The notes beneath the pieces were generated by a model. It had not been told where the DNA came from and did no database searches. It saw only the letters and a program-made list of their open reading frames with translations. The position numbers were made by a program, and so were the translations under genes. This document shows, piece after piece, positions 420 through 47,088 of a stretch of DNA of 64,000 bases (the first letter of the stretch is position 1; each line of letters begins with the position of its first letter). The stretch is taken from the NCBI GenBank assembly GCA_905250025.1, contig CAJNOJ010000103.1, positions 62,001 to 126,000 of the forward strand. Reading direction: 5' to 3'. This stretch comes from Adineta ricciae. Its lineage: Eukaryota > Rotifera > Eurotatoria > Adinetida > Adinetidae.

Positions 420-3268
420 TTATTGACATTTGGATTGATGAGTTAATTGTAAGTATGAATTAAGGTGATATACATGGCCCGATAGCACGTGTTCTAAAAC
501 TAATTGTTTCTCTCCATAGACAACATGACAAACTGGTTGATTTGATGAAGGTGTAATTGCAGCTCGTTCGAGTATTCCATCTGTCCACGTGATGTCTACT
601 TCATAATTTCCTCGTGCTCGTAAACCATAAACAGAACCTGACGGCCAACTCAGCGATGGTAGAGCAGGTAAAAGTTCAACACGATTCTTATGACTTTGAA
701 GCAACATTTCGCAAATAGCTGACATCGCACCGAAATTGGCATCGATTTGAAATGGTGGACCATCAATTAGATCAAATAGATTCGGAGCAGTGTGTGTAGG
801 TGTTAATAGCATGCAAAGAAGTTGAAAAGCGGTCGAACCTTGACGTAATCGAGCCCATATATTCGACTTCCATGCCAATGACCATCCAGTTGATGGAAGT
901 AAAATGCCTCGAAGTTCTAAAGAACGAAGAGCAGCATCATGATAAGGCGATGGATCATCGGTAACCGAACTGCCAGGAAAAACGCAGTATAGATGAGACC
1001 TTTAAAGAAACAAAATGAGTGATGCACGAAAGCAAATCTTCTTACATGTGCCGATTATGAAGGTCAGCCGTTTGATCCCAATCTTTGAACCACTCTTGTA
1101 GTTGCCCCATCTGTCCGATTTGTAAAGGTGGTAATTGTGCCAGAGTTTGTTGAACTTCTTGACGAAATGGCGCGTCAATATCAAACATAGTAGATGCTTC
1201 GATCACTGCTGAAAATAGATCTTTGAGTAAAAGAATATCCAGCGTTGGGCCGGCGCATACAACAGCGTTTAATTGAGCATGATGTGGAACTTCAGGTGAC
1301 ATGGATGGACTTGCTAATAAATAATTCGAGGATTTGACCAAAGTTTCAATGAAAAATTGGGCAGCCGAGCGAAGGATTGGGTAATAGCGAAAAAGAGTGT
1401 CTTTATCATTAGTAAATGCATAATAATCGGTGATAGTTTTACACAACCATACACCACCTGTTGGCCACGTGCCGTAAACAGCATCATCAACAGGTGCCGT
1501 GCCTCTCCAAATATCTGTATTATGATGACAGACCCAACTTCCTTCGCGTTTCTAAAATAAAATCTATTTTGTCTCACGAAGATAACGATTAACCGAATTC
1601 TTACTGTTCCGTAGTGTAATTTTGCAGTCGTTTGTCCCGTTTGAGATATATCTTGAATAAGGTCAAACAGTGGCTGGTAACATTCGACCAGATTCGCAGG
1701 TGCAGCTGCCCAATAATTCATTTCAATATTAATATTGATCGTATATTTCGATTGCCATGGTGGTGACATTGAATCATTCCAAATACCTTGTAACGTCGCT
1801 GCTTGACTGCCCGGCCGACTTGACGAAATTAAGAGGTAACGTCCGAATTGAAAATACAATGTTGACAATTGTGGATCTAAATTAGGATTTTGCGAGAAAG
1901 CCTGAATCCGACGATCAGTTGGCTGCTGCATCGCTGGACTTTCGCCCAAATTCAATCGAACACGATTAAATAATGACTGATAATCGGCGACATGGCGTTG
2001 CACTAGTTGTTCATAATTAAATTGTAAAGAATTTCTGAGCATAGTCTCACTCAAATGAATTTCATCACCATTGACATTGGAGTAATTAACATAACTCGTA
2101 GCGATTACAATGCGAAGCGTAAAATAATTCGCCGAAAATATTATTAAACGATCGTTTAGCAAATCGCATTGACCATCTGATTCAATATTGACTAACAAAC
2201 GAAACCGAATAGCTCCAGGCATCGAACCAAAATCACCGCCAACACCATCAACAATCAACGTGTTCGATTCATCAACAACTGTGCTGATTTTCTGTGTACT
2301 TGTAAATGATATAACACTATTGATAGAATTGAGTACCTAAATAAAAACGGCTTCGATCTGTTGAATAGTTCACTCAAAGTATACAGTACCGACGATTGAA
2401 CACGATAGACTATGCAATTATCAGGATAAGAAGCGAAACATGTTCGCTGGTATGAACTTCCATTGCTATCTGAATAACTTGTTGTAGCAGTGGCTTTTTC
2501 TAAATCTAATTCTCTCTGATAGTGATCGATCGTGACCGATGGTGATTGGTGAAAGAAATCGATCAGTAGATTTCCAACAGGTTGATACGGTGCCTGACCA
2601 ATCGGTTTTCCGAAAAAGCTCTCTGTCAACATTGTTTGCGCATCGACCCACCGATCATCTTGGATCAGTTGTTGAATTCGAGAAAGAGAATTGAAAGCAT
2701 CTTTATTCGAATAATCATGTGGACAACCAGCCCATAATGTATCACTATTCAGTTGAATTGTTTCACGTGGATATCCACCATAGATCATGCCACCCATATA
2801 ACCATTACCAACTGGCAATGCTTCCAGCCATGTTGAAGCGCTTTGTTCATACCACAATGTCAATGAAGACGAAGGAGTAGATTCCTTCGGTGGGATTGTG
2901 TCAGATTTGATGATTAAAATATTTAATAAATAATCAACTATTGCGACATGCTTGTGATGACTAGCCGTTCTTAATGGTCTGGGAGAGAAAGGAAAGAAAT
3001 TGCCATGAACAATAGGAAAATAATGCACTTACTCCAGCAAGTAAATATTTACACCGTGTTCGTAAAGATATTTTACAATAGGTAAATGGTTCGATTCAAT
3101 TGCACAAATTAATGGTGTTAATTTTTCGCACTGAATTAATGTCCAATGATCATATTCGACTTCTTTAAATATTGTTATTATTTCATCGACATTCTTTTTA
3201 TTTAAGTATTTCTTCACTTTGTCAAGGTCGCCATTAGAACATGACTCGTGCAGTTTCGATGGTATCAT
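420..3268 (-). CDS. Ankyrin-repeat / GH95 alpha-L-fucosidase fusion, 880 aa
   Basis: Predicted to hydrolyse alpha-1,2-linked L-fucose from glycans by an inverting mechanism. Five exons (3268-3033, 2978-2390, 2336-1605, 1551-1046, 999-420) sum to 881 codons including stop; all four introns are 46-54 bp and GT-AG. Residues 1-110 form about two to three ankyrin repeats (LTPLICAIESNHLPIVKYL, then ASHHKHVAIVDYLL across the first splice). The GH95 fold follows: LWYEQ...LPVGNGYMGGMIYGG, the NINIEMNYW block that carries the family's two catalytic Asn, HHNTDIWRGTAPVD, TWPTGGVWLC, GQLQEWFKDWD, SHLYCVFPG, GWSLAWKSNIWARL and PPFQIDANFGAMSAI with the base-activating Asp. No Met lies between the ankyrin part and the GH95 core, so the start must be at 3268. 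There is no signal peptide, so the product is probably cytosolic, unlike most GH95 enzymes. Where relatives usually read WEHY this protein reads TDYY. Gene models that split the two domains remain possible without RNA evidence. Confidence 0.85.
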
Positions 3269-3639: not shown

Positions 3640-4041
3640 TTTGTTAAGAAAAACAATTTATTTTAATACGAAACGAACGACAAACATCAGAAAAGCTTTG
3701 CTGCAAGCACAGCTAGAAGAACAAGAGCCGATGAGGAATAAAGATGAGATCCTTCGTTGCAAAAATCCATGTTCGAGCAGCAATAAACTGATGTAACACC
3801 AATATCAGTTGACGTCGCACACATTTCATCGGTACCAGACCGTACAATTACGCCAGTTACACCAACACTTTTCTATGCAAAGAAATCTTCTCTTTTCGAT
3901 GAAAATATGACCACATATCAACAAACTCGACAATATGTTTGGTTCAAAGCAGTTCCAAAAACTCCGCCTGCATTGAACGGGTCAGCGCAAGCTGAATTAT
4001 TCAGATTGTTACAAACTATACAACTAATCGTTCTTGCGTGA
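3640..4041 (+). pseudogene. Coding-like remnant, unassigned
   Basis: The stretch has coding-like composition in two neighbouring frames: first a charged helix-like segment (KALLQAQLEEQEPM), then about 80 residues containing VPDRTITPVTPTLFYAKKS and QYVWFKAVPKTPPALNGS. It does not form one continuous reading frame and has no convincing start. I do not recognise the family. It could be a decayed gene, or exons of a gene whose other parts I cannot see. Confidence 0.25.
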
Positions 4042-4376
4042 CTGATGAACGCTATTGAAAAAATATCAATTCTAATAATAAGATCATGCTACATAAAACT
4101 TACTCGATAGATACAGTAAAGATAAAATCCAATACATAGCTGATTGCATTTGTCTTCAGGTGAATTCAAAAGAATTTTTTTGTACAGTGGCAAATTTTTT
4201 TTTCTTTTCGATCCTGTCGCGATTGATTTCAAGGAGTTTTTCTTGTTTTGAAAACATTTAGAAATGAATGTAAACACGCCTTGAAGCTCTCAACGGTAAA
4301 AAATGAAGTTCTTCTAAAAATATCGAAGTAAGAAGGGTGAATAAGCTAATATGACTAACTTTCATTCATGTATTAA

Positions 4377-5024
4377 CCCTTAAAAGCCGAAACGTCCCTT
4401 CCAAGGGACATTGCATTAATGGCTATAGAACGAAGGAATTAAGTCGTATCCACAAGAGCTACTATGTTGTCGAATGAGAACAGCCAGAGTGATAGTATCA
4501 TAAGAAAAAAATCGTGTCAAAATAGTGGTCAGACACCAAAGTGTAGCTTTTAGAGTGTGTGACTTTTCAACCATAATTGGTTACTTGGATGTTTCTATCT
4601 GATGATATATACAACGTGGATTTCGAGTGGTATCATTAGAAATAATTCTAAACTATAATATAAAACAACTTTGTGCGTTTTAAACTCTTCTACTAAGGTG
4701 TTTTGAAGCTATAAAAAAGTGCCATTTTATGGGAACTTTTGGGCATAATCCTCAAGGTTTTTCGCAAATTCTCGCTCTATAGATAATTAGAGATATCTTA
4801 AAATTTCATCAGCGTGAACTTACAGTGATTCTGAACCATATAACAGGATCACCCAAACAAAAATTTATAGCGATCATACTTTACCCAGGTCATCTGTTTG
4901 GAAAAATTTTTTAGTCCCACCCAGCAGTTCCAACCACGGTTTGTGCATATTGGGGGTCTAAACCCTCTATTTATGTGATTAATTCTTTCTCCATTTCACA
5001 AAAACCCTCTTCGGCTTTTAAGGG
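4377..5024. mobile_element. piggyBac-type MITE, 648 bp, in a TTAA target duplication
   Basis: A perfect 15-bp terminal inverted repeat, CCCTTAAAAGCCGAA, opens at 4377 and closes as its reverse complement at 5024. Both ends abut a TTAA (4373-4376 and 5025-5028). TTAA target duplication with CCC...GGG termini is the hallmark of piggyBac-superfamily DNA transposons. The 648-bp interior has no long reading frame and no transposase motif, so this is a non-autonomous copy that would need a transposase from elsewhere. The perfect repeats and intact target duplication suggest a fairly recent insertion. It sits in the gap between the fucosidase gene and the plus-strand gene at 5355. Confidence 0.85.
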
Positions 5025-5354
5025 TTAAACCTCACTCACCCTATGTCTTTCAATAGTACATATGCTCCCAATAACTGCGACTGTCCCCAACGGACGTAAA
5101 AACCTTTGTGGCATTATTATAATATGATTATGTTGCCAGGGAATGAATCAGAACGCAAACAACATACAAATGTTGGAAGAAACCATAGACGTCGATATTG
5201 AGTTTCTAGTGTAAACGGCAATTACCAACGAGAAATAAACGGAAAAAACCAACATAGAGAACGTGGGCGTCATCATAAATATCAGTTGAAAAGCAAGACG
5301 TTTTGTGTACCAGTTAAATTGCACTGATTATCTATCGCGCCATAGTGACGAACA

Positions 5355-23383: not shown

Positions 23384-24878
23384 ATGGCTGGTCCCGGTGT
23401 TACTGATGAACCAATTGATTTACATGAATTATGTATTGATGGAGATTATGCTGAATTAAAATCAGTTCTAGAATCATCAACTAACGTTGATGTGAATCAA
23501 TATAAGCTGTTTGTTTATCGTCCATTACCGCATAGTTCTCAGCAAGTCGATGGTCTGGTCGATGGTGACGATGATTATCAATCTGATGATGAATCATCCG
23601 AATCGGGTACCATGTTTGATTATCGATCTCCACTCTTCTATGCAATTGTTCACGATCGATTAGCATGCGTTAAATTATTGATTGAACATGGTGCAAATAC
23701 TGAGAAATTAAGGTAGACAACGAACAAGTTTTCCTATTGTTTCAATATTCTTTTTGATTGATGTTTGTAGACCATGGGGTTTGAATGCATTTTGTTTATC
23801 ATGTTTTTGTGGTCGATTACGTATTGTAGAATATTTTCTTCATTTAAATTTCAATCTTAATATAACTGACAAACCAAGTGCAACTGATAATTATTTTGGT
23901 TCATTATCTAACGATCATGAACATAAAATAAAGATGCGCGAGATGCATTCACGTGTTGCACAGGATATGGGAATGTTTCATTATCCACTTCATATTGCTG
24001 CTAAACAAGATTCAATTGAATTACTTACACTTTTACTTAATTATAAACAAAAATTGAATCTCGAAATTCAAGAGCCTTATACAAAACGAACAGCATTACA
24101 TATTGCAGCTGAAAAATGTTCGACAGAGGTGTGCGATAGAAACTTTGATTAAACAGATATTCTTATATTTATTTCTTCTTCTTCTTCTTAGATCATTCGT
24201 TTACTATTAGAAGAAGGTCAATGTGAAGAAAATCCGGTTGATTTGAATGGACATACACCATTAGATATTGTTTGGAAATTACTCAATAATCTCGATTTTC
24301 AATTTGAATATCGCGAAGACACATTGAAACTAATGTTAAGTCATCAATGTCGATTTTCTTCATTGAAATCATTAACAGAATTTTATACGAATTCCTTATC
24401 AGCATTTCGTCGGTTCGAATCAAATTTCTGGATTGTCATTGCCTATGATTTACCCTCATTGTTTGTTGAACCTTTTCAAAATAATAAAACATTACTCGTT
24501 CATATATGGATTTGGTTCAATCGTAATTATCAAGACACTGTTATGGAAGATGATGAATTCGATCGGCATTACACTGGAAGTATTCTTCGAAATTTGATTC
24601 ATGTTATGTATGAAAACGAACAATTAACATTGACCAATCACGAATTAGTTGAATTATTTACCGAAGATTTGGGAAGTCATTTTGATAAAGCTACAGATGA
24701 AATTGATACGATTACAACAATATTATCAACACCATTGAAATTGAAGCAAATATGTCGAAATCGAATACGTAAACGACTTTGTTCATCTAAACTAGGTGGT
24801 CTTAATCAACAAACACTTGAACATCCATCACTCTCACCACAATTAACAGAGGCATTGAAACATTTTATTTTACCATAA
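23384..24878 (+). CDS. Ankyrin repeat and SOCS box protein (ASB-like), 457 aa
   Basis: Likely substrate receptor for an Elongin-Cullin5 ubiquitin ligase. Three exons (23384-23712, 23771-24128, 24192-24878) give 458 codons with 58- and 63-bp introns. The ATG at 23384 has a good context (AAAGCGATGG). Ankyrin repeats: IDLHELCIDGDYAELKSVLE, SPLFYAIVHDRLACVKLLIE, LNAFCLSCFCGRLRIVEYFL, YPLHIAAKQDSIELLTLLL, RTALHIAAEK and GHTPLDIVWKLL. The second is preceded by an acidic linker rich in Asp and Ser. The C terminus carries a SOCS box: PLKLKQICRNRIRKRL followed by LSPQLTEALKHFIL, matching the BC-box P.L..LCR..IR pattern and the distal L..FL helix. Confidence 0.85.
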
Positions 24879-42914: not shown

Positions 42915-45900
42915 TCAGTCTTCCATTGCTTCATCAGAAGATTCGTTATTATCACCACTATCTTCATCTCCTTCTTCTTTCCATTCTACTGTGTATTCCA
43001 TGGCTTGTTGACGAATATACAAATTATCACATTGTCTTAGCTGTTGAAGAAGTTCTTGGCATTGTTGTCGATCAGCATCTGTTTGGTTGAATACGGTATC
43101 TTTTAAGAGCTCGAACATAGCTAGTCCGCGATTTTTTTCTTTGATAAACCAACGAGCAAACTGGAGTTTTTCATTCGTATCCAACTGATGAATGAAAGCA
43201 CAGGCATTATTATCTTTGATGACGCTTGCTAATTGAGTTAAAACAAATTCGAAATATTTCTCTGGTAAGTTTTCTTGTAGAGTCTTGAAAAGATCTTCAA
43301 GTTCTTCTTTATTTTCGATTGTTTTCATCAGTAATCTTCCTAATATTGGAGCCAATGTTTTATCAAATTGAAAGACGATTGGAGTTATTGCTCGGAATGA
43401 AACTTTTCTCGTGTGATCAAATTTTTCCAAATGATTATTAAGAGTTGTCAACAGACTTTGAACGCGATGATAAACCGGTAAATCATGTCGATTATCAATC
43501 GCATTTTCTTTTGAATCGATTTCATCCCGACGTGCCATGACTTTTTTAATAATTTCAATAATTCGCTCCAATGAACGATCTGTTTGATGTTTATAACACG
43601 ACAGAATTGTTTCGAAAGCAGTTGTGCACAACGTATTTCCTTCCTTATCGAATCGAGTACAAATGATTTCTGCTTTGTCTGTTAATTTTTGTATATCACT
43701 GTATTCTTGGTCAATATTTAACCAAGCAGTTGATCGCGCTTCTAAGGAACTTGGATGGTCTAAAATTGCAAACTGTATTTGATTGACAAATGCTTTGAAA
43801 ACATCTTTTCCAGACGCTTTTATTCGTGATAAAGGCGAATTCGATGTATCTCGACCTGTAACAAATAATGATTGAATAACTGGTAAATATTCATCGTTAG
43901 TAGCTTGTTGAAGAATTTGCCAAAGAACTGTTTGCTCTTTCGATCGACCAATAAAATGAAGTAATGTTGATATAAGACAGGCACGAATATCCTGATGAGG
44001 ATGTTTCTCCCAAAATGGTTGAATAACTAGATGAACTAGATCGGACTTCGAGATAAATTCAGTTAATAAACGAAGAACTTCTTTGTTTGCGGTAATACCT
44101 AGAAGAGATTTGATAGAAATTTTCAAATCATATGAAACGATTGCTTTACCATATGTTGGAAATTTTTCATCTTGAATAAATTGAAGGTATTGTTCTAAGA
44201 AGATGTCTTCTGGGATTCGACGAGAAATGCATAACATAGCATCGCTGATATATCGTGCATTTGATGCTTTTAATTTCGTTTTTAAGAAATCGAAATGTTT
44301 GAAAATTCGTTCAGGTGGCAAATCGAATGTTGTAGGTAAACATTTAATAATATCACCGAGAGCTTCATTTGTTATACCACGACCCGGTCGATTTGTTGTA
44401 TTTGTAGAATTTGTTATCAATTGTGAATCTTCTTTTGATCGTATCCATTCGAGTGTTCGCTGATATGTATGTGGAAAACGACGAAGAACGTGCAATGCCG
44501 ACATTTTTTCCGCGACACTCACATCCTTATACTGAGAAGAATAAAGAAAAATTCGATTGTTGAGGTGAATATTTTATAATGAAAGTCTTTTTACCTGTAG
44601 AAAATCATTTAAAATTATATTGGTGATACGTTCTTGTTGTTGTCCAGTTAACAAATGTGAAAAACTGGCCAATAGACTAATTTCGAAACCAGGTAATTTA
44701 ACATCTCTATCGTCACGATCGTTGGTATTTGCAAATTTGCTTTCAGAATCTGTTAATTTCTCAGATGTAATACATTTTTCATCTTCAATTAATTGATCAA
44801 CCATCTGTCGATGTTGTTGAGAACGCAAAATATTCTGTTGAACAGATTTCTCAAGAAAAAATAGTTTATCAAGTTTGAGTAACTGATTCACACGTTCTGA
44901 TCGAGTCGATGGATTTTTTAGATAAAGATCCACGATTGAATTATGCGAATTAATACGAAATGCTGATTGAAACTGTGCTGATGATGGAAGTGTTTCAGTG
45001 AAAAACTTCTGGAAAAACGCATCGATTTGTGGCATCAACCAACTCTTCTGTATGGCACCATTCAAAGTAGACTGAATCATGTCGAAGTGACGCTTTGAAA
45101 CGAGATTCGGCAGCAAATCATTAACAAATATCTCAGCAAATATTTGACGTGTTTCAGGATATGCTTGAGATATTGGTAAATCATCTGTATATGGAAGACA
45201 GTTATTTTGATCAATCGAAAAGCATCTAAAATTGAGAAGAAAATTTCTATCTCTTCTTGACATTCGCTTGGTCACCTACTCTTTCATCATTTGTGTAGCA
45301 AACGTTTGCAGTTTTGCTTTGCGTTCTTTGTTCGCATGTGTTTCAACACGTTTGAGTATCCGAATTGCGTATTTCGTAATTATTTGGGAGGTATTTTCCG
45401 TTCGTTGTAGATGATTTTGTGTAAGTGAAAGAATTTTTTGAACGGATTCCAAATTCTTTGGTAAGATTTCGAATTGAAATCGATCATCGAGTGCATAAAG
45501 TTGATTGACGAAATTTTCAAGAACTATCAATTGTTCATTTGTAAATCGCTTTTCAATCCATTGAAGAACTTTCTCAACGGACTGTTCGTCGGTTGACAAA
45601 GCACATTTTAAAAATAATTGATAGTTCTTCACGCGTTGATTTACGTCTGAACCTGTTTTTTTGAATAATGACAGAAATTCATCGAAAACAGCTTGTGTCA
45701 TTGTTTGATAACGAAGAAATGATAATCGTTCTTTTGCATCGACAATTCCTTTTCGTTCGGCTTGAGATAATAATTGAACCGAGAGTGGTGTTGTCAGTTC
45801 GGAATATTGTCCTAGTAAATCGAGTGTACCTTGATCTCCTTCTTTGCAAAGCTTCTTTAAAAATGCTTCTTTTCCAATGCGTTGATTAATCACGATATCA

Positions 45901-47088
45901 ATTAACCATTTTCGTTGTTTTTTCAATGCACCCAGACTCTTTTGTGAACTTTGACATTGTAACATCATTTGGAGAAGGCTAATTGTGTTATTTGCTGACC
46001 ATTTACATGTATCATAGAGAGCAGAGAATAATCGAAGATAATTTTCTACTGAGAATGAACTAGGAATTGCAAACCAATCGAGATCGTTTGTAGTGGAACA
46101 CCAATGTGATTGAGTTTTAATTGAACCTATAGGAGCGAAAGAGAAGATTTGAATTTGAGGAAAAGAGGTGTAAAACAAACCTGGCTTATTCGCAGCTACC
46201 GTAGTAATTAATTCAATGGTTTCATTGGGCGCTACTTTGAAGAAATATATAAAGTTGCTTTCGATGAGAGACGGAAGACATTTTTGATGTTTATCGAGGT
46301 TTTTTATATATTCGATGGTTAAATTCAGAAACTCTTTTGGTTGGACTCGACACAATGATTTCATCAGTTGTTGATTTTCTGGAAAATAACTTTTGTAGGC
46401 TTCTTTGTCTTTTTTCTTTTCATCGAAGTCATTTTTAATTAATTGAATGATGACAAGCGGTTGACACGACAGTAATCTTGCGTATAGTGCAGATTTCCGA
46501 TCAATCTCAGTCAAATTCTTAATTGACCAACGGGAAAGAAGTTCTAAAATCTTTTGTACTGAACAAAATGGTAGAAGATGCGCATCGATGTTGTATTGGC
46601 TATGGTGATTGACTTCAGTCAAACGGCATAGAAGATCGTAGAAAAATGCTGGTGACTTCTTCAAACAATCGACTCGATGAAGACCTTTGAGAAACCGATT
46701 TTTAATCCTTGAGAACAGTGTAAAGCTAGAATTTTGGATTAATTGAGGAAAGAACTTACAAACGTGGAACAGTTTTGTCATTGATTGTTTGTATGATGAA
46801 ATCAGACGTTTTTTGTTGATCTTTTTGCAATTTAAGCCATATTTTTCCAGCGTGTGTTCGTTGTTCAACCGGATACGATTGATTCGAAAATATTTCTAAG
46901 AGATTTTTTTCATTCTTCGTTGACGCGGATAGAAATACCAACATTCGCAGATCGTCGTAGATTGAAACAGCCGATTTTTTCAGATGTTGTTCAATTTCGG
47001 TTTTATCAGATAAAGACAAAACATATTTGACTCGATCTGTCCATGATCCTGTAGTTTTTAATGTTTCGTATTGATTAATCAAAGACAT
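42915..47088 (-). CDS. Large alpha-helical repeat protein of unknown function, 1,316 aa
   Basis: Five exons (47088-46760, 46707-46181, 46126-45280, 45225-44595, 44531-42915) sum to 1,317 codons; introns are 52-63 bp. The whole chain is built of amphipathic helices with a HEAT/ARM-like rhythm, e.g. DIRACLISTLLHFIGRSKEQ, EEDLFKTLQENLPEKYFEF, and a C-terminal acidic tail (GDEDSGDNNESSDEAMED). There is no signal peptide, membrane span or catalytic motif. A large scaffold or transport adaptor is plausible, but I do not recognise the family. The 54-bp intron at 46127-46180 is a multiple of three without stops, so a read-through isoform 18 residues longer is possible. Confidence 0.75.

Follow-up and report, generated by a model that had tools for sequence, protein, structure and literature searches.

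GH95 enzymes of bacteria have counterparts in plants and fungi, and bdelloid rotifers are known for very many foreign genes. Two bacterial GH95 enzymes of known structure are the nearest described systems to the rotifer gene reported here. XacAfc95 (XAC1774, PDB 7kmq) of Xanthomonas citri is described as a GH95 alpha-1,2-L-fucosidase of xyloglucan (PMC8245568), and BACOVA_03438 (PDB 4ufc) of Bacteroides ovatus is an alpha-L-galactosidase. A third system is found in bdelloids: N4CMT, described as a bacterial amino-methyltransferase with an added chromodomain (PMC8885841).

The gene lies in Adineta ricciae (assembly of 130.46 Mb, 1033 contigs), within positions 62,001-126,000 of the 341-kb contig C103; this whole stretch of 64,000 nucleotides is called the window below. 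The gene encodes ankyrin repeats followed by a complete GH95 enzyme. It is probable that a bacterial-type GH95 was fused to a host ankyrin exon, which would have given an intact gene for a non-secreted, ankyrin-tethered glycosidase.

Gene model and the ankyrin-GH95 junction

The gene is encoded on the minus strand by five exons (236+589+732+506+580 = 2643 nt), which when joined give 881 codons including the stop, and thus 880 residues. All four introns are GT-AG, with phases 2, 0, 0 and 2. The features are as follows, in the order of transcription.

3033..3268, minus strand: exon 1, holding the start codon and the first two ankyrin repeats (residues 1-78, plus two bases of codon 79)
2979..3032, minus strand: intron 1, 54 bp, phase 2, GTAAGT...CCCAG
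2390..2978, minus strand: exon 2, ankyrin half-repeat PLRTASHHKHVAIVDYLLN, short linker, start of the GH95 N-terminal domain
2337..2389, minus strand: intron 2, 53 bp, phase 0
1605..2336, minus strand: exon 3, end of the GH95 N-terminal domain and start of the catalytic domain, with Thr474, Asn476 and Asn478
1552..1604, minus strand: intron 3, 53 bp, phase 0
1046..1551, minus strand: exon 4, middle of the GH95 catalytic domain, with Glu606
1000..1045, minus strand: intron 4, 46 bp, phase 2
420..999, minus strand: exon 5, last part of the catalytic domain (including Asp774), then the GH95 C-terminal domain and the stop

The coordinates, the frame, the phase-2 first intron and the 881 codons given in an earlier note on this DNA are exact. 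Its reading of ankyrin repeats fused to a complete GH95 enzyme is borne out by a Pfam search of the 880-residue product, which placed ankyrin at residues 6-98 and GH95 at residues 120-851, and by the one exon that spans both. This single exon (2978-2390) covers, without interruption, the half-repeat as well as the beginning of GH95. Because exon 2 spans both parts, the fusion is encoded in the DNA and does not come from joined gene models. Methionines occur at residues 1, 140, 143 and onwards, and Met140 is already within the enzyme. The note had also claimed that no Met lies between the two domains; indeed, residues 2-139 contain none in frame, nor does intron 1 add one when translated in the frame of exon 2. 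Because there is no usable Met before Met140, the GH95 part depends on the ankyrin start, unless there is an unseen first exon.

The ankyrin part was recognized by Pfam in the full product as Ank_2 (residues 6-98, E 2.5e-9). Exon 1 alone matched Ank_2 with 34.5 bits and Ank_3 with 34.7 bits; adding the exon-2 stretch brought the Ank_2 score to 43.4 bits, over positions 1-81 of the 90 in the profile. Within residues 1-117, Ank_2 scored 43.4 bits (cut-off 27.3) and Ank_3 scored 42.5 bits over three stretches (cut-off 22.3); the two or more repeats that define an ankyrin-repeat protein are thus present above the curated cut-off. The exon-2 stretch scanned by itself gave no Pfam ankyrin match. The half-repeat was also scored with a small ankyrin matrix built from nine repeats of the same genome. 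Its score of 13.5 was reached by 10 of 20,000 shuffles and exceeded by 2 of 997 window segments, both located at 23.6-24.0 kb in what is apparently one other ankyrin/SOCS gene. A chance match seems unlikely from these scores.

No parent ankyrin gene could be recognized in the host genome, where the best match had an E of 0.04. Nor was there a sign that the ankyrin part had recently been copied from a known ankyrin gene of the host; the best ankyrin matches in the genome are weak, and those with readable frames lie in ordinary multi-repeat genes. Where intron 1 interrupts it, the repeat loop has about five residues fewer than the loops of the other repeats, and the third ankyrin repeat may fold poorly because of this. 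AlphaFold modelled the half-repeat without helix and with pLDDT mostly below 50, when given exon 2 alone, with the exon-1 neighbour absent.

The ankyrin part might be a captured start only, supplying a promoter, a start codon and a splice site, binding nothing and leaving the enzyme free in the cytosol. The shortness of the domain, the clipped repeat at the intron, the weak model of the half-repeat (exon 2 alone) and the lack of any other start for the enzyme are consistent with this. However, the frame of the ankyrin part is unbroken and its score lies well above the Pfam cut-off, neither of which would long need to be preserved in a leader without use. We regard the captured start as rather unlikely, and prefer a glycosidase tethered by its ankyrin module.

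The GH95 enzyme and its bacterial relatives

The three GH95 domains are present in the expected order, all above cut-off: the beta-sandwich Glyco_hyd_65N_2 (PF14498; residues 120-359, E 2.1e-58), the (alpha/alpha)6 catalytic domain Glyco_hydro_95_cat (PF22124; residues 382-787, E 5.6e-151, profile positions 1-408 of 408), and the C-terminal Glyco_hydro_95_C (PF21307; residues 789-851, E 5.2e-18, profile positions 1-61 of 94). Catalytic positions were set by alignment with the structural relatives, and their roles were taken from the descriptions in PMC8245568 and PMC4491172. The asparagine pair and the acidic residues reported as general acid are both found. Asn476, Asn478, Glu606 and Asp774 have the same letter in 84, 85, 85 and 85 of 85 bacterial relatives, respectively, and Thr474, His528, Asn530, Asp532 and Trp534 are likewise kept. 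These relatives comprise the best 80 of 588 confirmed genome loci and five of 82 plasmid records; eukaryotic GH95 enzymes (plant, fungal and other animal) and other bdelloids lay outside the comparison set.

Among the 123 columns that are near-invariant (at least 95%) in the 85 bacterial sequences, seven deviate in the rotifer enzyme, including Ala775, which replaces a glycine beside Asp774. The bacterial median is about two deviations, and seven of the 85 bacterial sequences have at least as many as the rotifer enzyme. At the 98% level, 3 of 71 columns deviate; the bacterial median is 0, and three of the 85 bacteria are as deviant. Small insertions occur at residues 521-523, 721-722 and 766-767, among others. 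The rotifer enzyme thus appears more divergent than most of its relatives, but not decayed. A pseudogene was ruled out, as the catalytic residues, the splice sites and the frame are all intact.

Residue 474 is Thr, as in both the fucosidase XacAfc95 and the L-galactosidase BACOVA_03438. In XacAfc95, the T395H substitution is described as leaving the preference unchanged (PMC8245568). Thr474 as a sign of L-galactosidase was dropped, since XacAfc95, described as fucose-specific (PMC8245568), also has Thr. The name alpha-L-fucosidase used in the earlier note is right as to the family, GH95; as to the substrate, it would be a family name only, since Thr474 is common to both activities and cannot tell them apart.

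That GH95 enzymes are normally secreted or periplasmic, as the same note had stated, agrees with most of the relatives. A hydrophobic-stretch test detected a signal-like stretch in 69 of the 85, and 11 of the 16 missed by this test show a twin-arginine motif by eye. Only two, L018 (Rhizobium) and L099 (Paenibacillus), leave no space for an export signal; L118 and L120, two of eight further Armatimonadota loci, also look unexported. Export is therefore the norm among these relatives, with exceptions. Leaders were scanned with Pfam in the 19 relatives that have at least 60 residues ahead of the enzyme; the other 66 are shorter and were left out. No ankyrin family was found in these 19 N-terminal leaders. 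A Tat signal was matched in eight (E 0.01 or better), LamG in one, and two metallopeptidase-type families in one leader each. Six leaders were scanned from the eight Armatimonadota loci, L118 and L120 showing no such leader. A weak Tat-signal match was found in five of the six (all below cut-off) and a lectin-like LamG domain in three; ankyrin was found in none. An already fused bacterial ancestor was rejected, as ankyrin was absent from 19 of 19 long leaders and from 6 of 6 Armatimonadota leaders.

In the bacterial and viral collections compared, the nearest GH95 sequences found belong to Armatimonadota and Actinomycetota, with about 50% identity. In Armatimonadota, the phylum of L020, a match was found in 193 of 291 genomes, with a best identity of 52%. 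A quick tree grouped the rotifer enzyme with Armatimonadota and Actinomycetota GH95 (SH-aLRT 100), and a careful tree of 29 rows, with the eight loci added, kept the same placement with support of 100/96. The careful tree contained no smaller well-supported set holding the rotifer enzyme, and it does not single out a nearest member. The rotifer branch is long (1.36-1.44), and in the careful tree its amino-acid make-up was flagged as unlike that of the alignment; because of these two features, and in a comparison with bacterial sequences, the exact place of the enzyme is unsure. A bacterial-type enzyme part is supported by these sequence comparisons, although its source may yet have been eukaryotic.

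Third-position GC is 0.30 in the ankyrin part, 0.295 in the GH95 part and 0.28-0.32 in four neighbouring frames. Because the values are alike in both parts and in the neighbouring frames, this composition suggests that the transfer of GH95 was not recent. The neighbours within the bacterial collections compared, the introns and the host-like third positions would fit horizontal transfer. The earlier proposal that fusion followed acquisition of a foreign enzyme is favoured, within the set of bacterial relatives compared, by their lack of ankyrin.

The fusion might instead have been received ready-made from another eukaryote or a virus, and not made in bdelloids. This would agree with the missing parent ankyrin gene in the host, and with a comparison confined to bacterial and viral GH95. 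However, only two GH95 loci were found in viral contigs, each less than 40% identical to the rotifer enzyme; the third codon positions are host-like, and the bacterial leaders scanned are without ankyrin. We consider such an origin improbable, and keep to the view that a bacterial-type GH95 was fused with an ankyrin exon of the host.

Start of the gene and its surroundings

Retention of intron 1 leads to an immediate stop and a 79-residue ankyrin-only product. It is conceivable that the locus yields two transcripts side by side, one from an ankyrin gene that ends in exon 1 and one from a GH95 gene with its start elsewhere, and that the joint protein is a model artefact; read-through of the exon-1 donor would allow such a short ankyrin protein. 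However, the half-repeat of exon 2 is itself in frame with GH95, and the Pfam ankyrin score increases when exons 1 and 2 are joined. Exon 2 and intron 1 offer no in-frame ATG before Met140, and exon 2 has four ATGs ahead of Met140, all out of frame and opening short frames. Two transcripts are thus very improbable, and the single fused gene is preferred.

An unrecognized upstream exon with a signal peptide, by which the protein would be secreted like its bacterial kin, could be joined at the pyrimidine-rich, acceptor-like CAG site TTTTGCTTTCCTACAAACTCAG about 50 bp ahead of the start codon, but is highly improbable, because a TAA in the coding frame, eight codons ahead of Met1, lies between this site and Met1, so that an exon joined at TTTTGCTTTCCTACAAACTCAG cannot read into the ankyrin frame, and because the site is better suited to trans-splicing, in which the bdelloid leader would be joined to a short 5' UTR. 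Trans-splicing is reported in bdelloids (PMC1925144), and we infer that the CAG site could be a candidate acceptor for the spliced leader.

The genome was searched with a 23-base sequence that we take to be the bdelloid spliced leader. No exact match was found in the assembly; 46 places matched with one to three mismatches, whereas a reversed control gave none at this level. A lone difference at the first base is shared by 41 of the 46, and at 45 of the 46 places a T replaces the first G of the search sequence. The copies mostly form opposed pairs about 130 bp apart, on C6, C8, C43, C77, C79, C99 and C146. At the one leader place that was read, a GT donor follows. The leader copies, together with the N4CMT-like frames described below, mark the host as a bdelloid.

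Several other features were observed around the gene. Directly upstream, at 3687-3872 of the window (minus strand), a frame ending in CCSNMDFCN and a hydrophobic tail resembles by eye the final exon of a gene for a GPI-anchored Ly6/three-finger protein. About 1.1 kb upstream, at 4373-5028, lies a short element with 19-bp perfect inverted ends, which starts and ends in TTAA and is presumably a member of a piggyBac-like MITE family. Ten genome places, including itself, carry it at full or nearly full length with 92-100% identity; others are near 68%. Ankyrin-like repeats at 23624-24875 (plus strand) precede a SOCS-box match that is weak and below cut-off, and together they probably make up an ASB-type gene. 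At 42918-46895 (minus strand), single stop codons separate three long frames (552, 233 and 539 aa) that share one reading frame and gave no Pfam match above cut-off. Outside the window, two tandem ADP-ribosylglycohydrolase-like genes were recognized by eye at about 57.1-61.1 kb of C103 (L108 2098-6145, plus strand).

GH95 was found at a single place in the 130.46-Mb assembly by searches at protein, family and DNA level, and neither a paralogue nor an ohnologue of the gene was found there, the best candidates being scored in each case. In contrast, the GH29 alpha-L-fucosidase family is multi-copy in the same genome, with 37 matching pieces on seven contigs (C134, C147, C101, C300, C717, C72 and C326), some of them in tandem.

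Proposed origin and comparison with known systems

From the gene model, the one-exon fusion, the GH95 domains and the kept catalytic residues, the following course may be proposed. A bacterial-type GH95 sequence would have become fused, in frame, with exon 2 of an ankyrin gene of the host. The start codon and the first intron, and presumably the promoter too, would have come from the host part; the bacterial export signal would have been lost, with the host ankyrin module in its stead. The encoded protein consists of about three ankyrin repeats (residues 6-98), a short linker and a complete inverting GH95 glycosidase (about residues 117-880). As a non-secreted enzyme, it would remove terminal alpha-L-fucose or alpha-L-galactose by single displacement, through the attack of a water activated by asparagine. 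The absent signal peptide predicts a cytosolic location, and the type of the ankyrin domain predicts that it holds the glycosidase to a protein partner inside the cell.

It is possible, and proposed here only tentatively, that an exported bacterial GH95 that trims polysaccharides became an intracellular, partner-bound animal enzyme when a host ankyrin module took the place of its export signal. Bdelloids would then trim L-fucose or L-galactose, at the site of one particular protein, from intracellular glycans or from oligosaccharides imported from plants or algae. It can seldom be seen how a foreign frame acquires its start codon, its promoter and its location in the cell. In this gene the boundary between host-type and foreign-type sequence falls inside a single exon and can be placed to a few codons, and host-type ankyrin occupies the place of the export signal in the bacterial relatives.

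No ankyrin-GH95 protein is named in the titles or abstract openings of the related papers found in the open-licence PMC literature, and the pairing looks new. The closest solved relative is XacAfc95 (E 1.1e-194). The three-domain layout is common to both enzymes, and Asn397, Asn399, Asp690 and the Thr of the -1 subsite align; however, XacAfc95 is bacterial, belongs to a xyloglucan-degrading gene set, and is described with a layout without ankyrin (PMC8245568). In BACOVA_03438, the second closest solved relative, Asn372/Asn374, Glu501 and Thr370 align with Asn476/Asn478, Glu606 and Thr474; this enzyme is however described as periplasmic and L-galactose-specific, with a barrel flanked by beta-sandwiches only (PMC4491172). 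The nearest sequences found, the Armatimonadota GH95 (L113, L114 from the genome of L020, and L115-L117; 50-52% identity), differ in having weak Tat matches (L114-L117), an N-terminal LamG domain (L113, L115 and L116) and no ankyrin.

The principle is already known from N4CMT, which is likewise a bdelloid enzyme of bacterial type to which a eukaryotic binding domain was added (PMC8885841). Two bacterial-type N6_N4 methyltransferase frames (L109 and L110) in the same genome are N4CMT-like and are followed at the C-terminus by a chromodomain-like stretch, recognized by eye; N4CMT is apparently present in this genome too. The enzyme and the domain of N4CMT are different ones, and its added domain is C-terminal (PMC8885841). 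It has been reported from every major bdelloid family, and a recombinant form of the protein was tested (PMC8885841). If the fusion is held in other bdelloids, it would be a further foreign enzyme with a eukaryotic binding module, beside the N4CMT-chromodomain protein.
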